Source: Bacteroidota bacterium (GTDB lineage Bacteria > Bacteroidota > Bacteroidia > Chitinophagales > Chitinophagaceae). From it: a stretch of 64,000 nt of DNA. Positions 24,712-45,385 of the stretch are shown here, one piece after another (position 1 is the stretch's first letter; the number at the start of each line of letters is the position of its first letter). The DNA lies in assembly GCA_016868775.1 (NCBI GenBank), contig VGFT01000003.1, forward strand, positions 62,001-126,000, in the 5' to 3' direction. Below the pieces are notes generated by a model. The model saw nothing but the letters and a program-made list of their open reading frames with translations, was not told the origin of the DNA and did not search any database. A program made the position numbers and the translations under genes.

Positions 24712-24719
24712 CTACATTT
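24712..24719 (+). promoter_or_regulatory. Putative -7 box for the T9SS nuclease gene
   Basis: TACATTTG (exact TAnnTTTG) ends 7 nt before the ATG at 24727, predicting a leaderless or 2-4-nt-leader mRNA. Confidence 0.42.
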
Positions 24720-24726
24720 GTCAGTC

Positions 24727-25974
24727 ATGAGCCAAAAGTCAATTGGAATTTTTCTACTGCCCCTGCTTGCTACAGGCCTGATGCTGCTCTCCGCCATCCC
24801 CGCGCATACACAAAGCTCCGCCAACACCTTGGATGTGATCGGTTGGAATATCGAATATTTCGGTGCACCATACAACTCTGGCCCGCCAAACAAAGACCTG
24901 CAAGAGCTAAACGTCAAACGCATCATGCGCATGTTGGACGCAGATATTTACGGCGTCTTAGAGGTAGTAGATACCCTCCGGTTTCGCCGCTTGGTCGACT
25001 CGCTGGGGCAAGGCGAATATGCGTATGTCATCGCCCCCTATTGCTCGAGCAATACGACCGGAACGGGAAATAGCTGGACCAGCGGACAAAAACAAGCCTA
25101 CATCTACCGACGCTCCATATTCTCCAACATTAGTACTCGAGGTATGATGCGAAACAGCAGTGCCGCGTATACCAATTGGGGCTCGGGACGCTTTCCTTTT
25201 CAACTCAGTGCTACCGCGACGATCAACGGCGTCAGCCGAAACCTGAATTTTATTTTGCTGCATGGAAAAGCCGGCTCCACGCAATCGGACTACGATCGCC
25301 GGTTCGCCGCTGCACAGGAACTCAAGGATACACTCGATGCCTATTTCAATAACACCCTCAGCCTGATCATCGGAGATTATAACGATGCGCTGAATACCTC
25401 CATCTTTCCCGGCGCTTCTACGAGCAGCTACATTTCCATCGTAGCCGATAGTACCGATGCCGATAGCTATAAATCGATCACGCTGCCCCTGGGTGCGGCC
25501 GGACAAACCACCATGATCAACTTTCCCAATGTCATAGACAACCACGTCATCTCCAATGAAGTGATTCCTTTTTATGTGCCCAATTCGGCCAAAGTCCGAA
25601 CCGACGTAACCAGCATTGTGCCGGACTATGTAACCGCCAGCAACACCTCCGACCACTATCCGGTATTCTCTCAGTATAATTTATCCGGAGTGGTTACGTA
25701 TGTGCCCCCGTCTCCCGCCACTGAATGGGGACTCCAACTTTTTCCAAACCCGGGCCAATCTTCTTATTATTTAAAAATAACCCAAAACCTTCCGGCCTCC
25801 CCGGCCCGATTGTTTTCTGCCGGCGGACAACTAGTCTGGGAAGGCCGCCTCCCCAGACTAAATGCCGGAACGCATTATCCGCTGCCACTACCTCCCTTGG
25901 CCAATGGCAGCTATTATCTGGAGATCTATCCCGGTAACAAACGAACGCAATTACAACTGATTGAATTGAAATAA
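24727..25974 (+). CDS. Secreted EEP-family nuclease with T9SS sorting domain
   Basis: A 415-residue protein with signal peptide (LLPLLATGLMLLSAIPAHTQ), an endonuclease/exonuclease/phosphatase catalytic domain and a C-terminal T9SS type A sorting domain. The EEP motifs are intact: VIGWNIEYFG (Asn/Glu), YGVLEVVDT (metal Glu), FILLHGKAGS (His region), LIIGDYNDAL (Asp-Asn) and NTSDHYPVFS (Asp-His). From about residue 335 the sorting domain reads WGLQLFPNPGQSS and ends in NGSYYLEIYPGNKR. It is therefore probably exported to the cell surface, acting on nucleic acid or another phosphoester. It converges on the T9SS repeat-protein operon and shares a bidirectional terminator with it. Confidence 0.87.
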   Translation: MSQKSIGIFLLPLLATGLMLLSAIPAHTQSSANTLDVIGWNIEYFGAPYNSGPPNKDLQELNVKRIMRMLDADIYGVLEVVDTLRFRRLVDSLGQGEYAYVIAPYCSSNTTGTGNSWTSGQKQAYIYRRSIFSNISTRGMMRNSSAAYTNWGSGRFPFQLSATATINGVSRNLNFILLHGKAGSTQSDYDRRFAAAQELKDTLDAYFNNTLSLIIGDYNDALNTSIFPGASTSSYISIVADSTDADSYKSITLPLGAAGQTTMINFPNVIDNHVISNEVIPFYVPNSAKVRTDVTSIVPDYVTASNTSDHYPVFSQYNLSGVVTYVPPSPATEWGLQLFPNPGQSSYYLKITQNLPASPARLFSAGGQLVWEGRLPRLNAGTHYPLPLPPLANGSYYLEIYPGNKRTQLQLIELK

Positions 25975-25975
25975 A

Positions 25976-26000
25976 AAAGTCCCGCCGGTTGCGGGACTTT
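25976..26000. terminator. Bidirectional terminator between two T9SS-protein genes
   Basis: AAAGTCCCGC pairs with GCGGGACTTT around a 5-nt loop. T-rich sequence follows on the plus strand (TTTCTGTTTGTTTA) and A/T flanks on the other, so it can serve both convergent genes. Confidence 0.8.
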
Positions 26001-26030
26001 CTGTTTGTTTATTTTATTTACTCAATCTGC

Positions 26031-29000
26031 TTACTGAAGTATGATCCGCTGACGGCCCAACTCCTTCTCAAAATTCACCAAGCGAACCTCATAAATACCC
26101 AGGGGCAAATGCGCCGGAATGGTGAAGTTTTGATCGATGAAATTTCCCTGCACATTCATGTGATGAACATGCACCATTCTGCCCAATGCATCATAGAATT
26201 GCAAACCATGATAGCCGGGGTTCAATCCGGTTAGCGAAACCGTCAGGTTAACCGACTGACCCGGAAGCATGGGTGAAGGGAAAATCCGGAATCCGGCACC
26301 GATCGAACTCAGCGTAAAGGAACGCTGTAGTCCATAAGCGGTACCGCCACTGCTGGTAGCATAGGCTTTGTAATAATAAGTTGCTCCCTGCAGCAGGCCG
26401 GATACACCGGACTGGAAAGAACCGCCGGAGAGATTCGTTGACGGCACCTTGGTACCCGATCCATCAGCAAAGCCGTTGATCGAGCTATATTCAATACCAT
26501 AGGCCGTAACATTTGAGCAGCCCGTTGCAGCGATCGAACCCGCCAACGTAGCCCCGCGGGTAGTGATGGCCGAAGCGGCACCGGTCGTCGCCGTAGCGGG
26601 CGTATTCACCCCAGCTCCCGAAGCAGCCACAAATACCGATGAAGCCCCACCGCCGGAAATGGGGATCGATCCATTGTAGGACTGAACCGCCGTCGGATTA
26701 AAGCGAACAAAGATGGTGTAGCTCTGCGTTCCACCTGGATTTATGATGCCAATCGTATTGTTGTAACTGCCTCCGGAAGTTTGAGAAAAACTATATCCCG
26801 CCAAAGGCCCAACCGTGATCAATGAAGCTGTCAGGTTGCTGCCATTGATGGTGAAGGAATTGGGACCGGCCAGGGCATTCACACACACTGAACCAAAGGA
26901 TGCCAAGGGAGTAGCCGTCAACTGCGGTGGCGGCGGAGCTGTCGTCGTAAAACTTTGCTGCGCTCCATATGCCGTACCGCCACCATTCGTAGCATAGGAT
27001 TTGTAATAATAGGTAGTACCCGGAGTAAGACCTGTTAAGGCGGACGTAAAGCTTCCGGCATTCAGGTTGGAAGAAACCACTTGGGTACCGCTTCCATTTG
27101 CAAAACCATTAACCGTACTGTACTCAATGCCGTAAACGGAAACAGAGGTACAACCATTAGCTGAAATGGATCCACCTGCGGTTGCGGTGTTCGTCGTCAC
27201 AGAAGAGGAAGAACCCGTAACAACAGAAGGTGGCGTACTGATGCCAGCACCGGTAACCGAAACAGAGATCGAAGAGGAGATACCTCCACCACTCACCTGA
27301 ATAGTTCCGTTGTACGATTGCACCGCCGTGGGTGTAAACTGAACAAACACTTGCTGCGTGAACGATCCGCCCGGCTGAGAAATAGACAGACTGGCAGTAA
27401 ATGTTCCAGTCGATGTGGTGGAGAAAGCATATCCGGCAAGTGATCCCACTACCACATTTGCTGTCGATAAATTGCTTCCAGTGAGCGTAAATGAGTTGGC
27501 GGAAGTAGTTGTATTGATACACACATTTCCAAATCCGGTTAATGTAGAGGCAGTCATCGAAGGAGAAACGGTGGTAAAGCTTTGTTGAGTACCCCAAGTG
27601 GTTCCACCTCCATTGGTGGCAAAGGCCTTATAATAATACGTGGTGGCTGGTGTTAACCCGGTCAAGGCAGAAGTGAAACTACCGCCGGAAAGATTCGAAG
27701 AAGATATCTGCGTACCCGATCCATTCGAAAAACCGTTGGTAGTACTGTATTCAATACCGTAGGCGGAGACCGCCGAACATCCAATCGATGTGATAGAACC
27801 AGATGCAACTGCACCGCTTGCTGTGATTGAAGAAGCTGAACCGGTGGTTACCGCCGCTGCCGTGTTAATGCCAGCTCCAGTTACCGCTACGTTCAATGCC
27901 GTTGCCCCTCCACCACTAACGGAAATATTTCCATTGTAGGAAATGGCCGTCGTAGGAGTGAATTGTACAAAGATCTGTTGCGAATATGCCCCACCCGACT
28001 GCGTAAGATTGAGGCTGCTGGTATAAGCTCCACCGGAGGTAATGGAAAAGGTATAACCCGTAAGCGGACCCACAACAATATTCGCTGCAGTCAGGTTAGT
28101 ACCCGTAATAGTGAAAGAGTTCGGCCCGCCTACCGCATTCAAACAAACATTTCCAAATCCGGTAAGTGAACTCGCCGTGAGCAGCGGATTCGGAGAAGAT
28201 GTGGTGAAAGAACCTTCTGTACTATATGCCGTGCCGCCGCCATTGGTAGCAAAGGAATGATAATAATAAGTTGTGCCTTGCGTCAATCCGCTCAGTGCTG
28301 AAGAGAAACTTCCGGCCGACAAATTCGTAGAAGCAACTGCCGTTCCGCTTCCGTTGGCAAACCCGGAAGTGGTACTGTATTCGATTCCATAAGCCGTTAC
28401 GGAGGAACAACCATTGCTCGAGATCGATCCGGCTACTGTTGCGGAGGTTTGTGTAACCGGCGAGGCCGACCCGGCCGCAACGGTTGCCAAGGTATTGACG
28501 CCGGCCCCGCTGGCTGCCACTTGAATAGCTGTAGCCCCACCCCCGCTCACAGGAATGTTTCCGTTGTACGATTGTACCGCAGTGGGCAGTAGTTGCACAA
28601 ATACTTGCTGGGAGAAAGAACCTCCCGTTTGAGTCAGGTTCAAGGAAGTACTGTAAGTACCGCCTGCCGTGGTGGCGAATTGATAGCCAGCAAGGGGACC
28701 AACCGTAACATTCGCCGTAGACAAATTGGTGCCCGTGATAGTAAATGAATTGGTGGTAGAAGCCACATTCAAACACACGTTACCAAATGCCGAAAGGGTA
28801 GTCGCACTCAGGCTTGCAGAGGGGGCAGCAGTAGTAATGGCCGTAATCTCATTGGAGTTTGCAGAGGTCGAAACGCCATTGGTTGCGCGCACTACATAAT
28901 AATACGTGGTGCTGGAGGTGAGTCCGGTTACCGGATAGCTGGTTACATTACCCACATTCAAATTCTGCTGGACATAAGTATTTACGAAGCCGTTGACTTG

Positions 29001-30743
29001 TCCTTTCACATAGATTGCTGAGGTCCGACTGGTTCCACCGGCGGCAACCGGAGATGCGTTGATTGCGTCGTTGGATGTCATGATCCAACGCAGGAAAACC
29101 GAAGCTTGATTATTAGCTGCTGCAGGCAAGGCTACATCGGTCAGTGCACCCCAGGTGGTCAAATTCCCGGCAACAACCGCGATGGTAAGCGCTACTGTTC
29201 CCCCAGTTACATCGGCCCAAGTTCCAGATGATCCAACTTTGTATTGCAGTTTAAAATCTTTTGGTCCCGTTGAAGAAGATCCCTGCAAGGAGGATACCGT
29301 GATGTTTGTAGCACCCGTAGTATTTACCTCCACTTGCCAGAATTTAGTGTTCAGTCCACCATCCCACCCATTCGCCGAAACGGAATAAGGATTGGGCGTT
29401 CCATTGGCACCCGAAGGGCCAGACTGATAAGATATCGTTCCTGAAGATCCCTGCAAACTGATTGTCTGAATGTTGAGGTTATTAATATTGCCTGCATCGG
29501 CTGTCTGACTCGCAGAAGTAGCAGTTGCACAATTCCATCCGGCCAATGTTTCGTTAACCAATCCGGGCACTTTGGTATACACATCCAAAAAATACCCGGT
29601 GGCACCTGTGACGGCATTCCAATTCGCCGTGAATCCGGTACTGCCAACGGCGGAAGCAGCAGTGGCCACAGGAGCATCGATGGATGTTCCGGTTCCGGAT
29701 ACAGCAAGGGTACCGGTTGCTCCGCCTCCGCTTAAACTAACGTTACCGGATTTTAGTCCGTTCGATTGTGGCGTGAACCGAACATAAAAAGATGTAGCCG
29801 CAAGGGTTGCGGAGGTATAAGCAATCGTAGTACTCGCACCCCAAGAGGTATTGTTATTCGATACCTGAAAATCAGTGTTGGGCGCAGTGATGGTAATGTT
29901 GCCGGGTGCCCCGGTGAGGTTTGCCCCGGAAAGAGAGATGGTTTGTGAAGCAGAACTGGATCCGGTTACAACTGAGCCAAAGGAATTGATCGTCCCAATT
30001 GTTAGAGCTGGCGAGGCTGCCGAACCACCGGGTGTAACAGAGGCCCAAGTGGTGCCAGCTAAAATAGCATCAATTTGTTGGGTGGAAGCTGAACTGGCTG
30101 ACCCTTGACGCAAATAAACGGCACCAATACTGGTCGCATCTGTTATCGTGGCAGCGGTAACATTGGGAATGGTTGCCGTGGTTTCCGCTCCTCCCAATGC
30201 CGGATTCACCCAAAGATCAACAACGTCATCGGTCGTGGTGCCAGCATTGAAGGTATACTTGACCACCACTAAATAGGTTGTCCCAAATGTACGTGAAGCA
30301 GTTTCATAGGTGGCAGTTGAGTTGCTCTTTCCCACACCAAATTGAAATCCTCCTGTTCCGTCAGACTTGGCATAAACTCTTATCGGAAAAATCGTAGAGG
30401 TTTGATACAATCCAATAAAATAATCACCTCCTTGTGCCGCACTGACGTTTATCAGAAAAGACATATAAACACTTCCCGTGGTGGTACTGGTAAAGGTTCG
30501 ATTTGCATCTTCTCCGGATGTCGTCATGGTCACTGCGTTACCTACACCCGATCCGGGGTGACCGGTATAGGTCAGCCCGGGAGTGGTAACGATTAGTGCA
30601 TTGGTCCCGGCACCGGAGTGAGCCGACCATCCATTGGCGGTCAACAATTGCCCGGCGGCATAGGTAAAATCCTCCGTCAGCAATTGCCCATAAGAGGAAA
30701 AGGAAAGCACAACAGCGACCCAGACAGCTATAATTTTTTTCAT
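26031..30743 (-). CDS. Large secreted repeat protein with T9SS sorting domain
   Basis: A 1570-residue exported protein. In order: signal peptide (MKKIIAVWVAVVLSFSSYGQ); a concanavalin-like beta-sandwich (about 21-235); an Ig-like module (about 245-350); a fibronectin-III-like module split by a beta-sandwich insert (about 352-637); four tandem units of about 210 residues (about 638-1478); and a T9SS type A sorting domain (from FRIFPSPMLPGQSVNLTVSL). No catalytic motif is visible, so it looks like a surface adhesin or binding scaffold. It is the last gene of the TonB receptor-DUF5689-DUF5689 operon, 38 nt after the second lipoprotein gene. Confidence 0.85.
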   Translation of the reverse strand: MKKIIAVWVAVVLSFSSYGQLLTEDFTYAAGQLLTANGWSAHSGAGTNALIVTTPGLTYTGHPGSGVGNAVTMTTSGEDANRTFTSTTTGSVYMSFLINVSAAQGGDYFIGLYQTSTIFPIRVYAKSDGTGGFQFGVGKSNSTATYETASRTFGTTYLVVVKYTFNAGTTTDDVVDLWVNPALGGAETTATIPNVTAATITDATSIGAVYLRQGSASSASTQQIDAILAGTTWASVTPGGSAASPALTIGTINSFGSVVTGSSSASQTISLSGANLTGAPGNITITAPNTDFQVSNNNTSWGASTTIAYTSATLAATSFYVRFTPQSNGLKSGNVSLSGGGATGTLAVSGTGTSIDAPVATAASAVGSTGFTANWNAVTGATGYFLDVYTKVPGLVNETLAGWNCATATSASQTADAGNINNLNIQTISLQGSSGTISYQSGPSGANGTPNPYSVSANGWDGGLNTKFWQVEVNTTGATNITVSSLQGSSSTGPKDFKLQYKVGSSGTWADVTGGTVALTIAVVAGNLTTWGALTDVALPAAANNQASVFLRWIMTSNDAINASPVAAGGTSRTSAIYVKGQVNGFVNTYVQQNLNVGNVTSYPVTGLTSSTTYYYVVRATNGVSTSANSNEITAITTAAPSASLSATTLSAFGNVCLNVASTTNSFTITGTNLSTANVTVGPLAGYQFATTAGGTYSTSLNLTQTGGSFSQQVFVQLLPTAVQSYNGNIPVSGGGATAIQVAASGAGVNTLATVAAGSASPVTQTSATVAGSISSNGCSSVTAYGIEYSTTSGFANGSGTAVASTNLSAGSFSSALSGLTQGTTYYYHSFATNGGGTAYSTEGSFTTSSPNPLLTASSLTGFGNVCLNAVGGPNSFTITGTNLTAANIVVGPLTGYTFSITSGGAYTSSLNLTQSGGAYSQQIFVQFTPTTAISYNGNISVSGGGATALNVAVTGAGINTAAAVTTGSASSITASGAVASGSITSIGCSAVSAYGIEYSTTNGFSNGSGTQISSSNLSGGSFTSALTGLTPATTYYYKAFATNGGGTTWGTQQSFTTVSPSMTASTLTGFGNVCINTTTSANSFTLTGSNLSTANVVVGSLAGYAFSTTSTGTFTASLSISQPGGSFTQQVFVQFTPTAVQSYNGTIQVSGGGISSSISVSVTGAGISTPPSVVTGSSSSVTTNTATAGGSISANGCTSVSVYGIEYSTVNGFANGSGTQVVSSNLNAGSFTSALTGLTPGTTYYYKSYATNGGGTAYGAQQSFTTTAPPPPQLTATPLASFGSVCVNALAGPNSFTINGSNLTASLITVGPLAGYSFSQTSGGSYNNTIGIINPGGTQSYTIFVRFNPTAVQSYNGSIPISGGGASSVFVAASGAGVNTPATATTGAASAITTRGATLAGSIAATGCSNVTAYGIEYSSINGFADGSGTKVPSTNLSGGSFQSGVSGLLQGATYYYKAYATSSGGTAYGLQRSFTLSSIGAGFRIFPSPMLPGQSVNLTVSLTGLNPGYHGLQFYDALGRMVHVHHMNVQGNFIDQNFTIPAHLPLGIYEVRLVNFEKELGRQRIILQ
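26310..28835 (-). repeat. Four tandem ~630-bp coding repeats
   Basis: Four in-frame units, with boundaries near 28835, 28205, 27575, 26945 and 26310, each encode two modules. The first is about 105 residues (from xFGNVCLN to SGAG). The second is about 100 residues, fibronectin-like (from AYGIEYST to GTAYGxQxSFTT). Units keep a constant length but differ at many positions, so they are diverged rather than freshly copied. Confidence 0.85.
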
Positions 30744-30781
30744 GCCGATTTTGTATTAAACGTTTTGATTTTTCGATAGCA

Positions 30782-32914
30782 TTAATTCCAACTCAATTGA
30801 AGGTCGTCAATTGCAGAGGACGGCCGATTACCACTTCCGGTAGTAGCGCTCAGCGACACCACGCGGATCCAAACTTTTTGGTTCAGGTTATTCAGCGAGG
30901 CGCCAAAGTTGACGGTGGCCGTGGTGCCCCCAAACGTGGGTGTAGTGGTGAGGGTAGCCGGTGTGGTGTTTACAGGAGTAAAAGAAGTCGGAGTATCGCC
31001 CAGGCCATAATCGACGATCCAGGTTGTGGTTCTGCCCGAAGTATTGTCGAGCGATTGCAATTGAAAACTCAATTGAAAATTCGTTTTACCCGTGGTGTTG
31101 TCGAGCAGGATCACAAAGGCGGAGCCGGGATCGTATCCGGTAGCGCTGGTTTGACGAATTCCAAAAGCCCGGTTGGTGGCGGCGCCTTGTGCCGTAGCAT
31201 CTGCCGCGGCGGTTAGTCCCGTTGCCGAGGCAAAATTCTTGGCCCCGGCCGTGACGTTGTTCCAAACCGTCGGCGCCCATGCTCCAACGGGTGTCATATC
31301 TCCGGTTCCGATCGAACTGGCGGTGGCACCCACTTTAGCAGAGAATCCGGCGGGCAAACCGGCAGAGATTCCGTCAAAATTTTGTGTGTACGGTGAGGTG
31401 GTGAGGGGGAGTCCTGAACCGGAGGGAGGCGGCGGACCGCTGCCTGCCACCACATCATTCGTTGGATTGCGTATGCCGATCTGAAAGGTGGCCGCGAATG
31501 GCGTCAGGTATCCAACCAGCGAACTGGCTGTATTGGGATAAGTTGAATTGGCAAAACTGGCAGATGCCAATGTAAAGGCAACGATGGATCCGGTAGCATC
31601 CGTCAAATTCACACTGCCATTCCACCTTCCGGAAGTACCTCCGGTAAGGGAATTGATGTTGACGGTGCGCACAAGAGTAGATTCCCAATTTTCAAAATTG
31701 GCGATGATGTTGGCGATGGTAGCCTGACGCGGCGTGATTGATTTTCCGGTTGCGCGAACCGCGGCATAGGAAAGGGGAACGTTATTCAACTGAAGCAATC
31801 CATTAAACTCGGAGAGTTCCATGCCCGTTACATTTACATCGATCGAATCGCCCAGGTTAAATGAATGGTTTGCGTCGAAACGAACAACGATGCCGGCCAA
31901 ACCGTCTCCCTGCTGCAAATAGATGTTGCGGGCATTCAGGTTGTTGGTGGATCGATCACTGATTACTACTCCCGTAATGCGTTTAGAATTTGGTCCGTAT
32001 GTAATTGCTCCCGTATACAAGGCGCGCAGATCGGAGGTGTTCATTAATGTGGTAGGACCCGTTCCGCAGCGAGCCCCGTTGAATTGAACATCGTTCTCAT
32101 CGCGGACGGTAAGTTGTTTGGTGCTGCCGAAATAAGAATAAACACCAACGATGTCCCCGTTGCCATTGGGCAAATTCAGTGTCGCAAACTTGGAATAATT
32201 ACTGGTGCGTAGCGTGATTCGGTTTCCGGAGGGATTCGCACAACCCTGTACGATCCGATTTCCGGATTGATCGGCATCGGCAAATGGCTTGGATGTATCG
32301 GCCGCATTGAATTCATGTCCCACCAATTTGATCAGCGTGCTCACATAGCGGTCTTGTAAAGTGGTGGTCAGTTGAGAAACGTTCACCACCACCGGGTCGA
32401 TGGGTTGATTCAGCGCTCCACGTACAATATAGTCAGGCAACAAGTTTTGGGCGATCAGGGTCACGCCCCCTAGACTGAGGTAGTTGGAATCCAATCCGCC
32501 ACCCAGTTGAAGGGTGCCATTGTATTGTCCGAGGTAAAGTCCCTTGCACTTGACATACAATTTCCTTCCCACTGGATAGCTCGTATAATGGTTACTGCCG
32601 GCGATCCGAAGTAAAACGCCACCGGTACCATCTTGAATGGCGATCTGCTGATAATAATTTCCGCTTCGGTCGTCGCAAGAAACGATGCCTTCGATCACGA
32701 TATTATCGTTGATCGGCAGCGCTTGCCCTCCATTGTAACGGGCTTTTAATGCCTGAATAGAGGTGTTGGCGGTAATACCTGCGTCGCCAAGTACGGGTGG
32801 CTCAGCAATTTTTTTGGTACAACTGAGTTGCGTGAACAAGAGGGCCACTCCGATCAGCCCGGGCGCCCGTAGAAAAAGTGTTGTATGTTTCATATTCATT
32901 AGAATCGTATTCAT
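30782..32914 (-). CDS. DUF5689 lipoprotein with two DUF5689-like domains and a beta-sandwich
   Basis: A 710-residue predicted surface lipoprotein: signal with lipobox LLFTQLSCTKK; a first DUF5689 domain at about 45-285 (NIVIEGIVSCDDRSGNYYQQ, then IAIQDGTGGVLLRIAG); a second related domain at about 290-490 (ITGVVISDRSTNNLNARNIY); and a C-terminal jelly-roll-like domain at about 505-710 ending SSAIDDLQLSWN. DUF5689 resembles OB-fold modules; ligand binding is inferred, not shown. The second domain closely matches the neighbouring 236-residue lipoprotein, suggesting duplication. Several in-frame starts exist (TTG 32926, ATG 32914, 32899, 32893); 32914 is the first ATG past the upstream stop. Confidence 0.8.
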   Translation of the reverse strand: MNTILMNMKHTTLFLRAPGLIGVALLFTQLSCTKKIAEPPVLGDAGITANTSIQALKARYNGGQALPINDNIVIEGIVSCDDRSGNYYQQIAIQDGTGGVLLRIAGSNHYTSYPVGRKLYVKCKGLYLGQYNGTLQLGGGLDSNYLSLGGVTLIAQNLLPDYIVRGALNQPIDPVVVNVSQLTTTLQDRYVSTLIKLVGHEFNAADTSKPFADADQSGNRIVQGCANPSGNRITLRTSNYSKFATLNLPNGNGDIVGVYSYFGSTKQLTVRDENDVQFNGARCGTGPTTLMNTSDLRALYTGAITYGPNSKRITGVVISDRSTNNLNARNIYLQQGDGLAGIVVRFDANHSFNLGDSIDVNVTGMELSEFNGLLQLNNVPLSYAAVRATGKSITPRQATIANIIANFENWESTLVRTVNINSLTGGTSGRWNGSVNLTDATGSIVAFTLASASFANSTYPNTASSLVGYLTPFAATFQIGIRNPTNDVVAGSGPPPPSGSGLPLTTSPYTQNFDGISAGLPAGFSAKVGATASSIGTGDMTPVGAWAPTVWNNVTAGAKNFASATGLTAAADATAQGAATNRAFGIRQTSATGYDPGSAFVILLDNTTGKTNFQLSFQLQSLDNTSGRTTTWIVDYGLGDTPTSFTPVNTTPATLTTTPTFGGTTATVNFGASLNNLNQKVWIRVVSLSATTGSGNRPSSAIDDLQLSWN

Positions 32915-32922
32915 GGAAGGGA

Positions 32923-33633
32923 TCAATTGGCATCCGACGCAGCGCGCAAGGCCAATTGCTTGGTTGTATTGAAGGGGGTAAGGTAGCCGGTGATGCGTTG
33001 GGGGTTGCTGGGATAGACAACGCCTGCGAAGCCGGCAAAATATGAGGTAAAGATGATCAGGCTGTTAGCACCGCTGTTGATGGTAACGCTGCCCGACCAG
33101 GTTCCATTCGATCCGCCGGTGATTGAGGTAATACCGGTGATCTGAACCAGTGTCGATTCCCATGCCTCATAATTAGTATTGATGTCAGCGATGGTGGTGG
33201 ACCTTGGGGTGATGGATTTCCCGGAGGCGACCAGGCTGGCATAACTAAGGGGTACGTTGTTAACCTGCAACAATCCGCGGTACTCAGAAATTTCTTGTCC
33301 CGATACCTCCACGTCGATCGAATCGCCCAGGTTGAAGGCATGTGAAGCGGTGAAACGAACACAGATACCTGCTTTGCCGGTGCCCTGCTGCAAATAAATA
33401 TTTTGTCCGTTGATATTTCCGGTAGTGCGATCGCTGATTACGATACCGGTGATCTTGCGTCCGTTGGGTGCTGCGGTGGTTGATCCGGTAAAAAGAGCAC
33501 GCAACTCAGCCGTGTTGATCAGGGCTGCGGGATCGGGACCTTGGGGACCGACGGGTTCCTTACTGCAAGCGGTTAGCAATGCACCAAAACCGATCAAACA
33601 GCAGAGGACTCGAAGCGTATAAGTATGTTGCAT
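32923..33633 (-). CDS. DUF5689-type lipoprotein
   Basis: A 236-residue predicted lipoprotein with signal and lipobox FGALLTACSKE and one DUF5689-like domain (ITGIVISDRTTGNINGQNIY, FNLGDSIDVEVSGQEISEYR, GLLQVNNVPLSYASL). Its domain is the near twin of the second domain of the next gene. It follows the TonB receptor gene by 28 nt. In receptor operons such lipoproteins often sit on the cell surface and deliver ligand to the receptor; that role is inferred here. Confidence 0.8.
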   Translation of the reverse strand: MQHTYTLRVLCCLIGFGALLTACSKEPVGPQGPDPAALINTAELRALFTGSTTAAPNGRKITGIVISDRTTGNINGQNIYLQQGTGKAGICVRFTASHAFNLGDSIDVEVSGQEISEYRGLLQVNNVPLSYASLVASGKSITPRSTTIADINTNYEAWESTLVQITGITSITGGSNGTWSGSVTINSGANSLIIFTSYFAGFAGVVYPSNPQRITGYLTPFNTTKQLALRAASDAN

Positions 33634-33661
33634 AAGAGATAAATGAGTATGTATCGAAAAA

Positions 33662-36256
33662 TTAAAAACGAAGGGTTACACTGGAAAAGAAGTTGATGCC
33701 GTAGGCGTAGAACAAACGGGGCGGAAACTTACCCACTTGCATCGGATCGGTCGGTGCCAATTGCGGATCATACCGTAACTGTTCGAAACCACCGGTCACA
33801 ATTCCCTGATTGTTGAGCAGGTTGTTCACGCCCACATTGAATACCAAAAAGGTGGATTTCCCTTGGATTTCATACGCCTTGGGCAATTTCCAGGAGTAAC
33901 CACCGAAGAAATCGAGGGTTTGCTGGGCATCGAATTTGGTCTGACCAAACACCGCATTGTAATCGGTCGATCCGGGGGTGAGGTATTTCAAGGCATCCCA
34001 GGTGCGACGAACGGGATTGAAACTCAAATAGGATTGATCAAAATAATTTCCGGTCAGACTAACGAACCAGAATTTGGGGGAGCGGTAACTGAGCCCCACG
34101 CTATATGCCTCCATGGGCGTTGAGGGAATACGGAAATTCTCGGCGTAAATGATCTGCTGTCCCAGTAGCAAGGCACTGTTGTCGACCGTTATGGTTGCTT
34201 TTTGACGGCTGTCAAAATAATATCGTCCCAGGGCTGCCGCACCCGTCAGGGTCAAGGTGGAGGAAAGCTTGGCCTCGATACCCAGCTCGCCGCCGAAGTG
34301 GAGTTTGTCGATCCCGGTAGTGGCGTAGTTAACAAAGTTCTGGTACGTATCGTGGTAGAACGTAACCACGTCCATTCCACCTATGAACTGCGTGTAGTAC
34401 CCGCCGAGGTGGATCTTCAAACGCGGTGCATTCAACACGTAGCTTCCCTCGATGGTGCGAATGGTTTCAGAAGTTACCAGATCTTGTTGGGCATGGCGGG
34501 TACGAGGAGAAACGTATACATTCTCAAAATAGGGAGGGCGGGTTTGCTGAGAAGCATTTACGTAAACATAATTACGACCATCGATCTTGTAGGTAATGCC
34601 GGCTTTGACGCCGTAATTGAAAAAGTCGTTGACAGTGCCTTTCCCAAAAGAGTTGTTGGGAAAAAGACCGTGACGGGTATTGCCCTGTCGATAGAAGGAG
34701 GTTTGGGAGGCTGTGCCCGATAGGAAGAAATCGACCTTATTGAATTTAAATACGGCTTGAGCCCAAGCGGCAGCGCGACTGATGTTGATGTTGTAATCGT
34801 ATCCGTACGTATCCCCTTTTTTCAGGATGCGGTTGGGGTTGTTCAAATCGAATTGATTGGAAGAATTATCCGCTGGGAAATCGCGCTCGGCGAATTGATT
34901 GATGTTGACATAAAAATCACCCCCCAACAGGTCATCCACAAGCAGGTAGTAGTGGTTGCGCTGGTTTTGATACGATACACCGGCCGTCACATCGATGAAG
35001 CCGGCAAGTTGGGTGTTGAGTACCGAGTTGAAATTGTAACGCTGGGTATTGATGACGCGGTCTTGCAAGACATAGAGGGAACGCCGACCGCTTACATTAT
35101 TTCCCGGCGTACCATTGGCATTGGCGATGGTAGCAAAATTGGCGCGGTTCACATCGTACAAGCGTTGCCAGTTAATCTGACGAAGGTTGATATCGGCTTT
35201 CATCCGATCGCGGAGCAGTTGTCCTTGAATCGGATCGGTGGTGCTGGCCCAGGTAGAAGTATAACTGGGGAGATAGCGGTAGTAATCGGGGCGCGGATCG
35301 GGGGCGTTATACCAATCAAGGGCGGTTACGCTGCGGTCACCAAACGAGAAACCGGCGGCAGTGGTCCACGTAGTCTTGTTATTCAACCGATAATCATGCG
35401 TGAGCAGGATAACGGGTTGGTGGGTTCGGCCGATGCTGGCGTTGTGTTTGATGCCGTTTTGATATCCCCAGTTTGGGTTGTAGTAGTTGGTGCCGGCCAA
35501 GTCGAGCATTTCCCGAACGGAAGATCCTTGTCGACCGTTCTCGGTGGGCGCGCCAAAGGCGGTGAAGGAGAGCAGGTGTTTTTGTCTGATGCGTTTATCA
35601 ACGGCAGCAAAGTATCCCCATCCATTATAGAATGTACCGGGCACATATCCTTCTCCGGCCCAGCGGCGGCTGGCGCTAAACGAAAAGGCCCAGCCTTTTT
35701 TACTGAGTCCGGTTGAATGCGTGATCATCAGCCGATTGTTGTAGTTGCGGTTGGAGGAGGCATAGCCAATGCTGGTCTGGGCCCGTTGTTTGCTGGCGCG
35801 GGCATCGATCTGCATGTTGCCGCCGATGTCTCCGAACGTGAACGTGGTGTTGCGGAGTCCCCAGGTTTGTTCTCGGTTGCGCATCACGTCGTTGAGTCCG
35901 CCCCAAAGTCCGAACGGCGTAAATCCGTTATCCAGGTTATCCATCGGGATCCCGTTCATAAAGGTGCTGAAATGGTCGTTGTCGTAGCCGCGGATCCGAA
36001 AGCGAACGGCACTGAAATTGAAGGTGGCGGCGGAGTAGAACGGGTCGCGACCGGCGCTGAGCAAGGAAGAGGTGCTGGTGCTTCCGCCGTCGCCCAAGTC
36101 ATTGTCATCTGCCGAAACCACGGGAATGTTATCCAGCACACCATCCTTCAACTCCTCCACAATGGTGGTGTCAACCTTGATGATGGTTGTATCTTTTTGA
36201 GCGTGCAGGGAAAACAGGCAACAACTGAGTAAGCTGAGCAGCAGAATTCGGCGCAT
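33662..36256 (-). CDS. TonB-dependent outer membrane receptor
   Basis: An 864-residue TonB-dependent receptor for energised uptake across the outer membrane. It has a signal peptide (MRRILLLSLLSCCLFSLHAQ), a plug domain starting after a possible TonB box (TTIVEELKDGVLDNIPVVSA), the plug strand VRFRIRGYDNDHFSTFMNG, and a 22-strand-type barrel ending with aromatic FFSSVTLRF. It lacks the N-terminal carboxypeptidase-like domain of SusC proteins. The start at 36256 is chosen for the signal peptide. It is first in an operon with two DUF5689 lipoproteins and a T9SS repeat protein, divergent from a secreted EEP nuclease. The substrate is unknown. Confidence 0.9.
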   Translation of the reverse strand: MRRILLLSLLSCCLFSLHAQKDTTIIKVDTTIVEELKDGVLDNIPVVSADDNDLGDGGSTSTSSLLSAGRDPFYSAATFNFSAVRFRIRGYDNDHFSTFMNGIPMDNLDNGFTPFGLWGGLNDVMRNREQTWGLRNTTFTFGDIGGNMQIDARASKQRAQTSIGYASSNRNYNNRLMITHSTGLSKKGWAFSFSASRRWAGEGYVPGTFYNGWGYFAAVDKRIRQKHLLSFTAFGAPTENGRQGSSVREMLDLAGTNYYNPNWGYQNGIKHNASIGRTHQPVILLTHDYRLNNKTTWTTAAGFSFGDRSVTALDWYNAPDPRPDYYRYLPSYTSTWASTTDPIQGQLLRDRMKADINLRQINWQRLYDVNRANFATIANANGTPGNNVSGRRSLYVLQDRVINTQRYNFNSVLNTQLAGFIDVTAGVSYQNQRNHYYLLVDDLLGGDFYVNINQFAERDFPADNSSNQFDLNNPNRILKKGDTYGYDYNINISRAAAWAQAVFKFNKVDFFLSGTASQTSFYRQGNTRHGLFPNNSFGKGTVNDFFNYGVKAGITYKIDGRNYVYVNASQQTRPPYFENVYVSPRTRHAQQDLVTSETIRTIEGSYVLNAPRLKIHLGGYYTQFIGGMDVVTFYHDTYQNFVNYATTGIDKLHFGGELGIEAKLSSTLTLTGAAALGRYYFDSRQKATITVDNSALLLGQQIIYAENFRIPSTPMEAYSVGLSYRSPKFWFVSLTGNYFDQSYLSFNPVRRTWDALKYLTPGSTDYNAVFGQTKFDAQQTLDFFGGYSWKLPKAYEIQGKSTFLVFNVGVNNLLNNQGIVTGGFEQLRYDPQLAPTDPMQVGKFPPRLFYAYGINFFSSVTLRF

Positions 36257-36389
36257 GATAAGCAGTTTTTTGAGAGACCTGCAAAGTACTAGGATTCTTA
36301 TGGATAACGATAAAAAAGTATACACATAACAATCCCTTCATATTTCAAGAAGATCCAGCCATAAATCACAAATTGCCTAACTTGTACCG

Positions 36390-37451
36390 ATGTTTCGAAT
36401 CCTGCTTTTGCTGCTGGGAATGTGGGGCTGTTCCGCCTCCTTAATGGCGCAGTCAAAATCCTATAAAGTAGCCATCGTGGGCTTTTACAATCTGGAAAAT
36501 TTATTTGACACCATCAACGATCCGGGGGTGGATGACGAGGAGTTTTCGCCGGATGGTCCACGCCGCTACAGTGGGGAGATCTACCGCGATAAACTAACCA
36601 AACTGGCCACGGTGATCTCGCAAATGGGAACGGAGATCAATCCGGACGGACCCGGTATTTTGGGCGTTGCTGAAGTGGAAAATGCCGGGGTTTTGGAAGA
36701 CCTGGTCAAACATCCGCTGATCGAGAAAAGGGGCTATAAGGTAATCCATTACAACTCACCGGATGCCCGGGGGATTGACGTAGGGCTTCTCTACAATCCC
36801 AAGTATTTTACCCCAGAAAAAAGCAATAAGCTTTTCGTCCTGCTCCCGTCCGGAAGCAAGGATGCCTATTACACCCGGGACGTATTATGGGTAAAGGGCA
36901 AACTCGACGGCGAGGACATTCACGTTTACGTGAATCACTGGCCCAGCAGAAGCGGGGGCGAAAAAAGAAGCGAACCCGGACGAATGGCGGCGGCGCAAGT
37001 GTGCCGCAACCACATGGATTCGATTGCCCGGCTGGAAAAATTTCCAAAAGTGGTGCTGATGGGTGACCTGAACGATGACCCCATCAACAAAAGTGTCAGC
37101 CAAGTGATCGGCGCTCAGGCCGATAAAGACGAGGTGATGTGCGGAGGAATGTACAACCCATGGACCGACCTCTATAAAAAAGGATACGGCACCCTGGCCT
37201 ATCAGGATGCCTGGGGACTGTTCGACCAGATCCTGATCTCCCAACCCTGGTTACCTGAAAACCAAAGTGGATTTTTCCTCAAATCGGCCCGCATCTTTAA
37301 CAAGGAATATATGGTCGAGAACCGGGGCCGATACAAAGGCTACCCAATGCGCACTTGGGACGGCCTCACCTACCGCGGCGGATACAGCGATCACTTTCCT
37401 GCCTACTTGGTGCTGCTTAAAGAGACCGCGCCGGTTAAGAAGAGCTTCTGA
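36390..37451 (+). CDS. Secreted EEP-family nuclease/phosphatase
   Basis: A 353-residue endonuclease/exonuclease/phosphatase protein with signal peptide (ILLLLLGMWGCSASLMAQ). Catalytic motifs are intact: VGFYNLENLFD, LGVAEVENAGVLE, VYVNHWPSRSGGEKRSEPGR, VVLMGDLNDDP and GGYSDHFPAYLVLL. There is no T9SS sorting domain, so it is probably periplasmic or outer-membrane associated, unlike the other EEP protein in the cluster. The CSASLMAQ region could be read as a weak lipobox. It diverges from the TonB receptor gene across 133 nt and so may be co-regulated with it. The likely substrate is nucleic acid or another phosphodiester. Confidence 0.88.
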   Translation: MFRILLLLLGMWGCSASLMAQSKSYKVAIVGFYNLENLFDTINDPGVDDEEFSPDGPRRYSGEIYRDKLTKLATVISQMGTEINPDGPGILGVAEVENAGVLEDLVKHPLIEKRGYKVIHYNSPDARGIDVGLLYNPKYFTPEKSNKLFVLLPSGSKDAYYTRDVLWVKGKLDGEDIHVYVNHWPSRSGGEKRSEPGRMAAAQVCRNHMDSIARLEKFPKVVLMGDLNDDPINKSVSQVIGAQADKDEVMCGGMYNPWTDLYKKGYGTLAYQDAWGLFDQILISQPWLPENQSGFFLKSARIFNKEYMVENRGRYKGYPMRTWDGLTYRGGYSDHFPAYLVLLKETAPVKKSF

Positions 37452-42281: not shown

Positions 42282-42932
42282 ATGATTGAACCGGTCCCGC
42301 TTCTGATCCGATCCCAATCCTGCTGGCTCTCTCCCGCCCGTTGCCTTTTTTGGGAAGAAAATAAAACACTGGTGGCAGGCGCGTTTCAGCTGGGGCGGAT
42401 GGCCGAACCAACAACGGCTTCTTCAGAACGATCCAGTCTCGACCGACTACAAGAACAAATACTTTTTTTCAAGGCAGAACGCGTTTTGCTACTGAGCGGC
42501 TTTGCCCTTCCGGAAAGTAATCGGTATCTGGATGAATTTATCCGTTGGCGAAAGCAATTTCCCTCCCTATCCCTCGTTTGTATTCTTCCCAAAAGCAGTC
42601 CCGTTGTCGAATCACTATTGGCAACAATGGGAATTGAAGTGCAGCTGGATGAATTGACAGAAGGACCATTTTGTTAGATAGCCAGCCGAACAGCAGCAGA
42701 GAAGTGGGAGGCGCGTCGAGCAACCGAATTCATGATGAGTGGGTACCAAGACCCAGGCTATAAAAATTACGACGCCCCTCGGCAAGCGGCAGGGACGCCC
42801 TGCTTTTTCCTGACACCAGACCATGCACTCCTTCCAGCCTTCAGCAAACCCAAGGGGGTTGATTCCGTAAAACCCGGAAAGGATCAATTGGTCTGGCTCT
42901 GTCAATCCGATATCCTGGAACGAAAAACCTAG
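42282..42932 (+). pseudogene. PdeM-like metallophosphoesterase, metal ligands lost, in-frame TAG
   Basis: The frame starts at ATG 42282, meets TAG at 42675-42677 and continues open in the same frame to TAG 42930-42932 (about 216 codons). Read through, it follows the layout of the ligase-associated phosphoesterase PdeM: CLFWEENKTLVAGAFQLGR (family LLxADLHLGK), RVLLLSGFALPESNRYLDEF (family VLGDLFHS), VCILPKSSP (family RGNHD), SGYQDPGY (family GHIHPG), and PCFFLTPDHALLPAFSKPKG (family PCFxF...LPAFSxFTG). Every metal-binding Asp and His position is replaced. It lies 5 nt after the previous gene and overlaps the convergent DUF5916 gene by 4 nt. Homology is recognised by eye. Confidence 0.6.
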
Positions 42933-45385
42933 GGGCGGCGGCGAAAACGCTCCGCATCCAAAAAATAGATCAAGCGAACACTGAGTTCATGCCCGTGTCG
43001 CAAATCAAAACTGCCCGCCAAATTGTCGAAATAGGGACACTTGGACAAGGAAAGTGGCAAACGGTCCAATTCGGTCAACCAGTTTTTATAACCTACGATC
43101 AATCGACTGCCCAGTCGATAGTCCCACGTCAAAAACGCATCTACATTGAATAGATTAACATTGTTGTCACGACCCGATAAAAAAGGATGAGAAGAAATGT
43201 CTCCGCGTGTATCCACGCGGTGAAAAGAAGAGTAAGTAACCTGATTCCAATAATGCCGAATCCGAAGCGAAAGATTCAGCCGATAGGCAAAATGATAGAT
43301 GCCGGTTAACAAGTTAGTGACTTCCTGGTTTCGGCGAAAGCCAACGAGCGGGCTCCCATTCGGCTCCCGTACAAAGGCATTTCCCAATTGATTTTCTTCC
43401 AATTTGGAGTCGGACTGCAGCTCGAGTAAAAAGCGATTGCTGAACCGAAAGCGTAGTCCACTTCCAAACAAAAAATATTCATTGTCAAATTTTGGGGCCC
43501 GCGCGAGGACCAAACTATATCGCCAAAATAATTTTTTACGGCTGTCAGTACTTCCCGATACTTCAACGTATACATTGGGAGGCAATCGCAACACCCGACC
43601 GGATGTGCGCAACTCGAAATAATCGTTGGTCCATACCGGTGAGATCCCCACGTTGACTCTGGCATCCCAGAAATTCTTAAACCACCAAAAGCCCTCAAAC
43701 CGTATATCCGTTGATACGAACCGGCGGGGATTATACAAATACTGCAAACGGGGATTGATCGAGTAACTGAACGAGTTGAAACGCTTGGTGGGTCGTTGCT
43801 CCCGATACGCCAGGTTAGCAAAAAAATTCATTTCGTTGGGGGCCAGTAAAAATCCCAGATCGTTTGGATCATAGTTCTTAGACTCAATATTGGTAGTGAG
43901 GTCGTACTGCCAAAGTCCACTGATCTTGGAAAACTTCAGATTTCCCATCCACCCGGACTTATTAATAGCATCCCACACCTGGCTGTAGCGCGCCTTTGAC
44001 CGCAACACATGCACGTTTCTTTTGTCGAATAAGGCCAAGTCCAACCCCATCACATTGGCATCACGTGCCGAGCCGTTCCGCACCACATTGGTATTGGTGA
44101 AGGTCAGCGAGGAGCGGTTTTTGAGGGCCTGGTCCAATACCACAATATTGTAATTCGCCAATGGCTCGGTAAGAATACTGGAATCTTTTCCGTTGGAGCG
44201 TCGACGGATACGTGCCTCCATCGGCGCGGTGATGGCATTGAATACGCCTATCCCCAATTTGTTTTGATCTCTTCCGGAAAATTTTAAGGCATTGTAGAGT
44301 TGCGTCCGGATCGGATTGTGCCGGATCTCCCAATCCGGATTGGCCTGCACAAATCCGTTGACCGCATTGTATCCCTTAGGAATCGCCCCGACCCGACGCG
44401 AATAAAACAAACGTGCTTTGTTGAACAACTCGGTTCCCTCGGTAAAAAAGGGACGGTTCTCCTGGAACTGTACTTCGAACGGTGTCAAGTTGTTGATGAC
44501 ATTGTCGGAGATAACCTGACCAAAATCGGGAACAAGCGTCATGTCAAGCGTGAAACTTTCATTCACGCCTACTCTCAAATCCATCCCCCCATTTTGAAAC
44601 CCATCTCGCTCAAACCCGCCGGGTGCCGGAGAGCGGGCATACCCGGCCGATACATAAGGCGATAAACTCAGTCGCAATGGAGGCTCGATCGCTGTTAGTC
44701 CGGTTAGTACCCCGAACTGATTGGCAAATCCATCCAGCTGCGGATCGATCGGATTCCAAAAACTTCTTTCGTTGTTCCGACGGGTAAAACGCAAGGCTTG
44801 TATGCCCCAATCCTGTACGTCCTGCTTGGCAAACCGCAACGCACTGTAAGGAATCATCATTTCTACGGTCCACCCTCGATCGTGTATGCGCACCCGACTA
44901 TCCCAAACCGCATCCCAGGATTTGTCCCCGTACATCCCGAAGGAACCCGTAAAGGCCGGCGTGATCCGGGCATCGGTTTGCACATTCACGGTGGTTACAC
45001 CAAACTGAAATCCGTTTTGCTTGTCGTTATACGTATCAAAAAAAATGGAAAAGAAGTCAACATCCGCCTGCCCCTCCGCATCCCGGGGCGTGAACTGCTT
45101 GCGGATCAAACGAGGATCATCCGTCAACTCCGCTCCCACGTAGATCGCCTGATTATCGTACACGATCCGTACCGTAGCCGATTGCGGAGCCGGTGCACCC
45201 AGCTGCGGAAAAACCTGTATAAAATCGGTCAACGAAGCAGCCTGACTCCACACGGAGTCGGTAAGCAGTCCATCCAGTTTCGGAGCGCGGGCTACACAAA
45301 CCGCCGAAGCTTTTTTGGGGGCCGGCTGGGCCAGGGCCAACTGAGAAAAACCCGCCAGGAGAAACAACAGTGGAAATATCCGCAT
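42929..45385 (-). CDS. DUF5916 outer-membrane protein with CBM9-like domain
   Basis: An 818-residue exported protein with signal peptide (RIFPLLFLLAGFSQLALAQP). Residues about 30-225 form a family 9 carbohydrate-binding-like domain (APKLDGLLTDSVWSQAASL, VRIVYDNQAIYVGAELTDD). The DUF5916 region follows and looks like an outer-membrane barrel (ENRPFFTEGTELFNKARLFY, LFYSRRVGAIP). Function in this family is not established; many members sit near outer-membrane transport genes. A TACTTTTG box ends 7 nt before the start. Confidence 0.85.
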   Translation of the reverse strand: MRIFPLLFLLAGFSQLALAQPAPKKASAVCVARAPKLDGLLTDSVWSQAASLTDFIQVFPQLGAPAPQSATVRIVYDNQAIYVGAELTDDPRLIRKQFTPRDAEGQADVDFFSIFFDTYNDKQNGFQFGVTTVNVQTDARITPAFTGSFGMYGDKSWDAVWDSRVRIHDRGWTVEMMIPYSALRFAKQDVQDWGIQALRFTRRNNERSFWNPIDPQLDGFANQFGVLTGLTAIEPPLRLSLSPYVSAGYARSPAPGGFERDGFQNGGMDLRVGVNESFTLDMTLVPDFGQVISDNVINNLTPFEVQFQENRPFFTEGTELFNKARLFYSRRVGAIPKGYNAVNGFVQANPDWEIRHNPIRTQLYNALKFSGRDQNKLGIGVFNAITAPMEARIRRRSNGKDSSILTEPLANYNIVVLDQALKNRSSLTFTNTNVVRNGSARDANVMGLDLALFDKRNVHVLRSKARYSQVWDAINKSGWMGNLKFSKISGLWQYDLTTNIESKNYDPNDLGFLLAPNEMNFFANLAYREQRPTKRFNSFSYSINPRLQYLYNPRRFVSTDIRFEGFWWFKNFWDARVNVGISPVWTNDYFELRTSGRVLRLPPNVYVEVSGSTDSRKKLFWRYSLVLARAPKFDNEYFLFGSGLRFRFSNRFLLELQSDSKLEENQLGNAFVREPNGSPLVGFRRNQEVTNLLTGIYHFAYRLNLSLRIRHYWNQVTYSSFHRVDTRGDISSHPFLSGRDNNVNLFNVDAFLTWDYRLGSRLIVGYKNWLTELDRLPLSLSKCPYFDNLAGSFDLRHGHELSVRLIYFLDAERFRRRP

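Follow-up and report, generated by a model that had tools for sequence, protein, structure and literature searches.

A 64,000-nucleotide stretch of a Bacteroidota genome (positions 62001–126000 of contig 3, in a 2.03-Mb assembly of 10 contigs; hereafter the window) carries a locus in which a TonB-dependent receptor gene is followed by genes for two DUF5689 lipoproteins and diverges from the gene for a 353-residue EEP phosphodiesterase (Table 1). We consider this locus likely to be a DNA-uptake module related to the genetically proven transformation system of Riemerella anatipestifer. Capture of extracellular nucleic acid is well supported, because orthologues are essential for transformation, the module is conserved, and the predicted fold of DUF5689 is HIN-like. 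The initial annotation of the window had described a nucleic-acid capture locus, and the conserved linkage, the Riemerella deletions, and the DUF5689 fold now support that description. It had also envisaged two-stage nutritional digestion, which is not supported as the principal reading, given that the orthologue phenotype is transformation and that the second EEP enzyme, of the type exported by the type IX secretion system (T9SS), and a large repeat protein were found only in loci of one genus. Digestion as food is possible, but it is not the best-supported purpose.

Relationship to the Riemerella transformation genes

Gram-negative bacteria are mostly held to import DNA through type IV pili (PMC8383284). 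In a transposon-screen study of R. anatipestifer, clean deletions of RA0C_RS04915, an outer-membrane protein with a CarboxypepD_reg domain, and of RA0C_RS04920, a DUF5689 protein, brought transformation below the detection limit (PMC8459023). RS04910 appears once in the main text of that study, as a neighbour with unaffected transcription, and the paper reports no deletion of it. The authors place homologues of RS04915 in Flavobacteriaceae only at one point, and describe the four new genes as widespread in Bacteroidetes at another (PMC8459023). In separate work, tonBA and tonBB mutants transformed less, and the tonBA mutant was not iron-defective (PMC8383284). Within the open-access literature searched, PMC8459023 was the only article found to contain the term DUF5689 and, among the matches listed, the only one with the tag RA0C_RS04915; no title or abstract was found there on RS04910 or on a HIN-like DUF5689.

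The Riemerella genome used for comparison was picked by an exact match to the published comEC primer, which occurs in 2 of 320 genomes of the family, both from one genus. Its region reads recA (recognised by eye), four genes, comEC, two genes, an EEP gene (397 residues) diverging from a receptor gene (935 residues), and a DUF5689 gene. Since this order, with its spacing, fits the published tags RS04870, RS04895, RS04910, RS04915, and RS04920, which run in steps of five, we take the locus to be identified; the receptor of the region carries CarboxypepD_reg, matching the description in the paper. Near the uptake locus of both Riemerella-genus genomes lie genes that by eye resemble cas9, cas1, and cas2 (L183:1590–7031 and L185:1310–6752), the cas9-like frame measuring 1145 residues in one genome and 1400 in the other.

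The window receptor and the Riemerella receptor beside comEC are reciprocal best matches (33% identity; 368 bits in each direction), and the next-best match of the window receptor in the R. anatipestifer genome scores 98.6 bits. On these sequence comparisons, the window receptor is orthologous to RA0C_RS04915. The 353-residue EEP enzyme matches RS04910 (281 bits, same divergent position) and the larger DUF5689 protein matches RS04920 (73 bits); both are one-way matches, for which position and similarity together suggest orthology. A tree of 43 receptors (32 from modules, 11 others) separates the module receptors from a side family if rooted on that side family, whose members are also found near the module in some Flavobacteriaceae. 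In Flavobacteriaceae, several loci (L128, L129, L096, L176, and others) encode a second, related receptor family of ~850–910 residues at a distance of a few genes from the module. Loci of Chryseobacterium/Kaistella type fall into two receptor lineages, L100–L107 and L108–L124, with 72–85% versus 42–47% identity to the same query; their DUF5689 partners measure ~700 versus ~440–520 residues, and Riemerella groups with the second lineage.

The window therefore shares with the Riemerella system an orthologous receptor followed by a DUF5689 lipoprotein, with an EEP gene in the same divergent position. It differs in having two DUF5689 lipoproteins, a T9SS-type EEP enzyme, and a repeat protein, and in lacking a nearby comEC; the two organisms belong to different orders of the same class. 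The N-terminal CarboxypepD_reg domain of the Riemerella receptor was likewise not found in the window receptor. Since this region is also missing from the receptor of a same-order relative (L081), we do not treat the domain as defining.

Pfam Plug falls below its cut-off in the window receptor (16.8 versus 23.9 bits). Its predicted model (mean pLDDT 77) matched TonB-dependent receptors in all 50 of the PDB matches listed, which settles, at the level of the model, its initial annotation as a TonB-dependent receptor with plug and beta-barrel fold. Among solved structures, siderophore, copper, and pyrroloquinoline quinone receptors come closest in fold, at 9–13% identity. These matches point to the TonB-dependent receptor class and to nothing finer, and PDB sequence searches with the receptor gave nothing useful. 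Both the receptor fold and these nearest structures would suit an ordinary SusCD-like glycan, siderophore, or vitamin locus. We judge such a locus very improbable, given the orthology to a transformation receptor and the absence of any SusD or glycosidase family among the Pfam matches of the proteins scanned. On the latter ground, which agrees with the initial annotation, a glycan/SusCD locus was rejected. Known SusCD and PusCD loci also combine a TonB receptor, a surface lipoprotein, and an exported hydrolase; the window lacks their SusD and their glycosidase or phosphatase set.

Conservation of the module and properties of its products

We typed 122 loci of up to 23 kb, all picked by their receptor, so that they test linkage and not frequency. 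Among the 80 loci from named records, which are the best 80 of at least 588 confirmed matches, DUF5689 followed the receptor in 80 of 80, and, of the 78 with upstream sequence, 72 had EEP immediately upstream of the receptor in divergent orientation. Within the window's genus (20 loci), EEP adjoined the receptor in 19, the exception having a split receptor frame, and DUF5689 lay at most two genes downstream in 19, the exception ending at a contig edge. The order and phylum samples (20 loci) gave 16 with adjoining EEP (co-directional at L090 and L091; missing at L080, L085, L086, and L099) and 19 with DUF5689 (missing at L085). When the 14 open reading frames (ORFs) of the Riemerella stretch were compared with all 122 loci, EEP was found in 110, the receptor in 122, and DUF5689 in 119. 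The other 11 ORFs were each limited to 2 or 3 loci, counting the two of the Riemerella genus, and comEC lay inside the stretch taken at those two loci only. The linkage of receptor, DUF5689, and EEP proposed at the outset is thus conserved, and the arrangement recurs across families where the surrounding gene order is lost. One locus with a Flavobacteriia-like gene order (L126) comes from a record titled as a 'Candidatus Nitrotoga' metagenome-assembled genome and is probably a stray Bacteroidota contig.

Strong receptor matches were found in 28 of 35 genomes of the window's genus, and full-strength EEP matches in exactly those 28. The seven receptor-negative genomes, two of which are only 72% and 87% complete, had no EEP match (four genomes) or weak ones of 20–57 bits in long frames (three genomes). 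Given that receptor and EEP are neighbours, single deletions could explain their co-loss. The sole Exo_endo_phos_3 gene found in the window's 2.03-Mb genome directly diverges from the receptor. Since it sits there, and since the arrangement recurs where synteny is lost, the pairing is more than chance.

Pfam finds DUF5689 twice in the larger protein (DUF5689a; 7.5e-84) and once in the smaller (DUF5689b; 1.1e-30), and both start with lipoprotein-type signals as judged by eye, which bears out the annotation of two DUF5689 lipoproteins. In the window, DUF5689 lies directly downstream of the receptor on the same strand. The predicted model of DUF5689a has pLDDT values mostly of 79–97 over residues ~51–400 and below 50 over residues 415–714. 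All 15 PDB matches of this model at E≤0.001 (Foldseek) were HIN-200 entries, 9 by their titles and 6 (4jbj, 4jbk, 4jbm, 4qgu, 3rn2, and 3rn5, of which two are represented by two chains) that we take to be HIN-200 structures. The best match was p204 HINab with double-stranded DNA (E 1.3e-7). HIN-200 domains, here those of AIM2, IFI16, and p204, are tandem OB folds, and several were solved with DNA, according to the entry titles. DUF5689 is predicted to share an OB-fold arrangement like that of HIN-200 domains, which at the level of fold agrees with an earlier guess. Because the TM-scores are low, membership of the HIN family is not claimed; Pfam gave DUF5689 alone in these bacterial surface lipoproteins, with no HIN-200 sequence-family match. 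A match to the NCBIfam model lipo_M949_1556 was rejected as a clue to orthology (119 bits versus a cut-off of 475); M949_1556 is described as an antigenicity and virulence gene (PMC12566107).

The 353-residue EEP enzyme matches Pfam Exo_endo_phos_3 at 1.4e-113. Residues N34, E95, E97, H183, D226, N228, D334, and H335, whose catalytic roles are presumed by analogy with DNase I, show no substitution among 110 of 110 EEPs linked to a receptor, the window copy included, in keeping with the intact motifs first described. A lipobox-like start was seen in 3 of these 110, and therefore most should be soluble exported proteins. PDB sequence searching found no solved relative of this enzyme at E≤0.01, and BLASTP found no meaningful similarity between the two EEPs of the window.

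The conversion of double- to single-stranded DNA is ascribed by the Riemerella authors to an unidentified protein (PMC8459023). A domain scan of four ComEC frames, namely those of Riemerella, of G014 and G003 from the window's genus, and of the window's own genome as far as the stop that interrupts it, detected DUF4131 and Competence; at E≤0.1 it gave no beta-lactamase nuclease domain. EndA of Streptococcus pneumoniae, which we take to belong to an enzyme family unrelated to EEP, offers a parallel. This separate nuclease can replace a missing or inactive ComEC nuclease domain (PMC12455585). Given the lack of a nuclease domain in the scanned ComEC frames and the precedent of EndA, we predict that EEP performs strand degradation. 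That it is the dedicated strand-degrading nuclease of Bacteroidota transformation is a tentative proposal, to which we give somewhat less than even chances.

In the mechanism that we propose, surface DUF5689 lipoproteins would bind double-stranded DNA via their OB folds, and the TonB-energised receptor would pass it across the outer membrane. In the periplasm, DNA would be cut by the Sec-exported EEP, acting as a nuclease on one strand or on excess DNA, and single strands would then enter through ComEC. The genus additions, the T9SS-type EEP and the repeat protein, would perhaps shorten or release DNA at the surface. The cell could use imported DNA for recombination and, if its recombination genes are defective, probably as a nutrient. 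A broader and still more tentative suggestion is that many Bacteroidota possess a pilus-independent, TonB-powered route of DNA import, in which HIN-like lipoproteins and the receptor act with a periplasmic EEP nuclease that replaces the missing nuclease of ComEC; the window's genus would have gained a surface nuclease, and this strain may now only feed.

These comparisons connect the outcome of a transposon screen in one duck pathogen with a module that several families of the class possess. DUF5689 gains a plausible DNA-binding fold, and EEP becomes a candidate for the strand-degrading nuclease left unidentified in the Riemerella paper. The module bears on the movement of genes, resistance genes included, among Bacteroidota.

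Competence genes, constraint, and alternative explanations

Several observations weigh against DNA uptake for transformation. Receptor identity to Riemerella is only 33–34%. TM-scores between DUF5689 and HIN domains are low (target-normalised 0.24–0.42 in the 15 best matches), and tRNA-synthetase matches lower in the fold list indicate that OB folds bind other ligands too. EEP is missing beside the receptor in 6 of the 78 named-record loci (L146, L154, L155, L159, L160, and L165). Eight genomes from other families of the order carry a full-strength EEP without any match to the receptor, and four receptor-positive genomes have their EEP on a different contig. Flavobacterium johnsoniae is reported not to be transformable, though the authors count the homologues as present (PMC7965970). 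In the window's own genome, at sites outside the window, comEC (contig 1, 161490–162944) contains an in-frame stop ~70 codons before its usual end and dprA (contig 3, 48805–49411) has one stop and is divided over two frames. Given these interruptions, the strain may not transform at present. Finally, neither comEC nor dprA shows covariation with the receptor: 31 of 34 relatives with a strong receptor match (E<1e-50) and 21 of 24 others have each gene. Since almost every relative carries them (52 of 58 for either gene), this co-occurrence test was set aside as uninformative, and their distribution neither supports nor opposes a link to the receptor.

The irregular placement of EEP might mean that this enzyme is an unrelated neighbour with different phosphodiester substrates, for instance lipids or cyclic nucleotides, with receptor and DUF5689 alone taking up DNA. 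The lack of a solved relative by sequence would fit this idea as well. We nonetheless regard it as unlikely, given that EEP adjoins the receptor across families in which synteny is lost and that, within the genus, all 28 receptor-positive genomes and none of the 7 receptor-negative ones have a full-strength EEP match. Loss of EEP as the cause of non-competence in Flavobacterium was also considered and dropped, since an EEP gene was found elsewhere in all four checked genomes without EEP beside the receptor (G258, L160, L165, and L146, the last as two pieces of one frame). At several Flavobacterium-type loci (L146, L159, L160, L165, and L099), a co-directional gene of ~405 residues occupies the position of EEP beside the receptor.

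The interruptions were set against selection on the same branch. Two sister genomes, G007 and G014, have open comEC and dprA frames, and sequence-family matches indicate an HhH DNA-binding protein and a DUF1343 protein in the window's genome. With G014 as outgroup, nonsynonymous and synonymous changes were scored solely at codons on which the two sisters agree, and stops solely at codons common to both. The comparison covered 271 codons of comEC; recJ had no partner in G007, and DUF5689b was left out (14 codons aligned, in a wrong reference frame). Nonsynonymous:synonymous counts were 12:113 for the receptor, 16:79 for DUF5689a, and 3:47 for EEP, compared with 11:61 for guaA and 10:73 for purH as housekeeping genes; receptor, larger DUF5689, and EEP look constrained on this branch. 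The 418-residue EEP and the repeat protein gave 8:34 and 21:138. Since dprA (9:34) and the compared part of comEC (2:15) show no relaxed constraint, their interruptions look isolated and may be recent or assembly errors. Over ~120 kb, an ORF comparison with a sister suggested that 5 of 72 frames are disrupted in the genome of the window, and 4 of 73 in the reverse direction; frames at stretch ends, below 55% identity, or partly covered are omitted from these counts, and some of the disrupted frames are probably spurious ORFs.

If the interruptions are real, the uptake module has been kept without a working recombination route, which would favour feeding. On such an account, the same parts would import or digest extracellular DNA for phosphate, nucleosides, or carbon, without recombination. 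The intact and constrained state of the receptor and EEP beside interrupted comEC and dprA fits this account, as does the existence in the genus of a second, probably surface-exported EEP. Low phosphate has also been reported to induce TonB transporters and secreted nucleases in Flavobacterium (PMC8115612). Yet loss of transformation is the sole phenotype found for the orthologues (PMC8459023), and the lack of relaxed constraint weakens decay of the competence genes as proof of a feeding role. Apart from phosphatase-type fn3-like repeats of the 1570-residue protein, moreover, the Pfam scan of eight proteins yielded no phosphatase or nucleosidase family. We therefore hold DNA scavenging to be doubtful as the function of the locus, and retain uptake related to transformation as the preferred explanation.

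Organisation of the locus and genus-restricted genes

An ORF check found all six genes in the order and on the strands initially annotated (Table 1). The minus-strand genes are spaced as in an operon, with gaps of 28, -4, and 38 bases from receptor through DUF5689b and DUF5689a to the repeat protein. The 418-residue EEP gene converges on this operon from the recJ side. Judging from the signal peptide, the true start of the receptor is probably an internal ATG at 36256; with a start at 36325, the region between receptor and EEP measures 64 bases. Across 107 divergent pairs, measured on the longest ORFs, the spacing runs from -42 to 414 bases, with many near 138. This intergenic region is likely a shared regulatory region; a search of it for a sigma-70-like promoter found none.

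Table 1. Features of the locus, in window positions
Feature	Position	Strand	Basis
TonB-dependent receptor, 887 aa	33662..36325	-	Predicted fold; reciprocal best match to Riemerella RA0C_RS04915; tree
DUF5689 lipoprotein b, 236 aa, one DUF5689 domain	32923..33633	-	Pfam; signal by eye
DUF5689 lipoprotein a, 714 aa, two DUF5689 stretches	30782..32926	-	Pfam; fold model; relative of RA0C_RS04920
fn3 / choice-of-anchor-D repeat protein, exported, 1570 aa	26031..30743	-	Profile matches; co-directional with receptor operon
EEP enzyme (Exo_endo_phos_3), Sec-exported, 353 aa	36390..37451	+	Pfam; match to RA0C_RS04910 in the same position
Second EEP enzyme, 418 aa, T9SS-type tail weak in window copy	24718..25974	+	Profile matches
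Divergent intergenic region, receptor/353-aa EEP	36257..36389	.	From probable receptor start

The 418-residue EEP and the 1570-residue protein are accessories that were seen in no locus outside the window's genus. The former occurs in 8 of 20 genus loci and the latter in 13 of 20, some of which end early, and neither was found in the 20 wider loci. Pfam Exo_endo_phos in the 418-residue enzyme is below its cut-off (20.8 versus 24.5 bits). Its closest named models are the MnuA membrane nuclease and, in two relatives, the ExeM/NucH DNase, all of them weak matches far below family cut-offs, and a PDB sequence search gave nothing useful. The catalytic motifs described as intact in this enzyme stand as seen by eye only (GDYND and SDH). 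Its annotated T9SS domain fared unevenly: Por_Secre_tail reaches 18.5 of 23 bits in the window copy and exceeds the cut-off in 5 of 6 relatives examined. With the T9SS translocon protein SprA present in the genome, the 418-residue EEP of the genus is probably exported by this system. T9SS export of the 1570-residue protein was not borne out, with no Por_Secre_tail match at E≤1; phosphatase-type fn3-like repeats, an accessory type, are among its Pfam matches.

Two further genes were noted in the window. sprA, at 1–5151 on the minus strand, runs past the left edge and has an open frame of 2481 codons in the genome. At 42929–45385 on the minus strand lies a gene for an 818-residue protein with DUF5916 and a CBM9-like domain.

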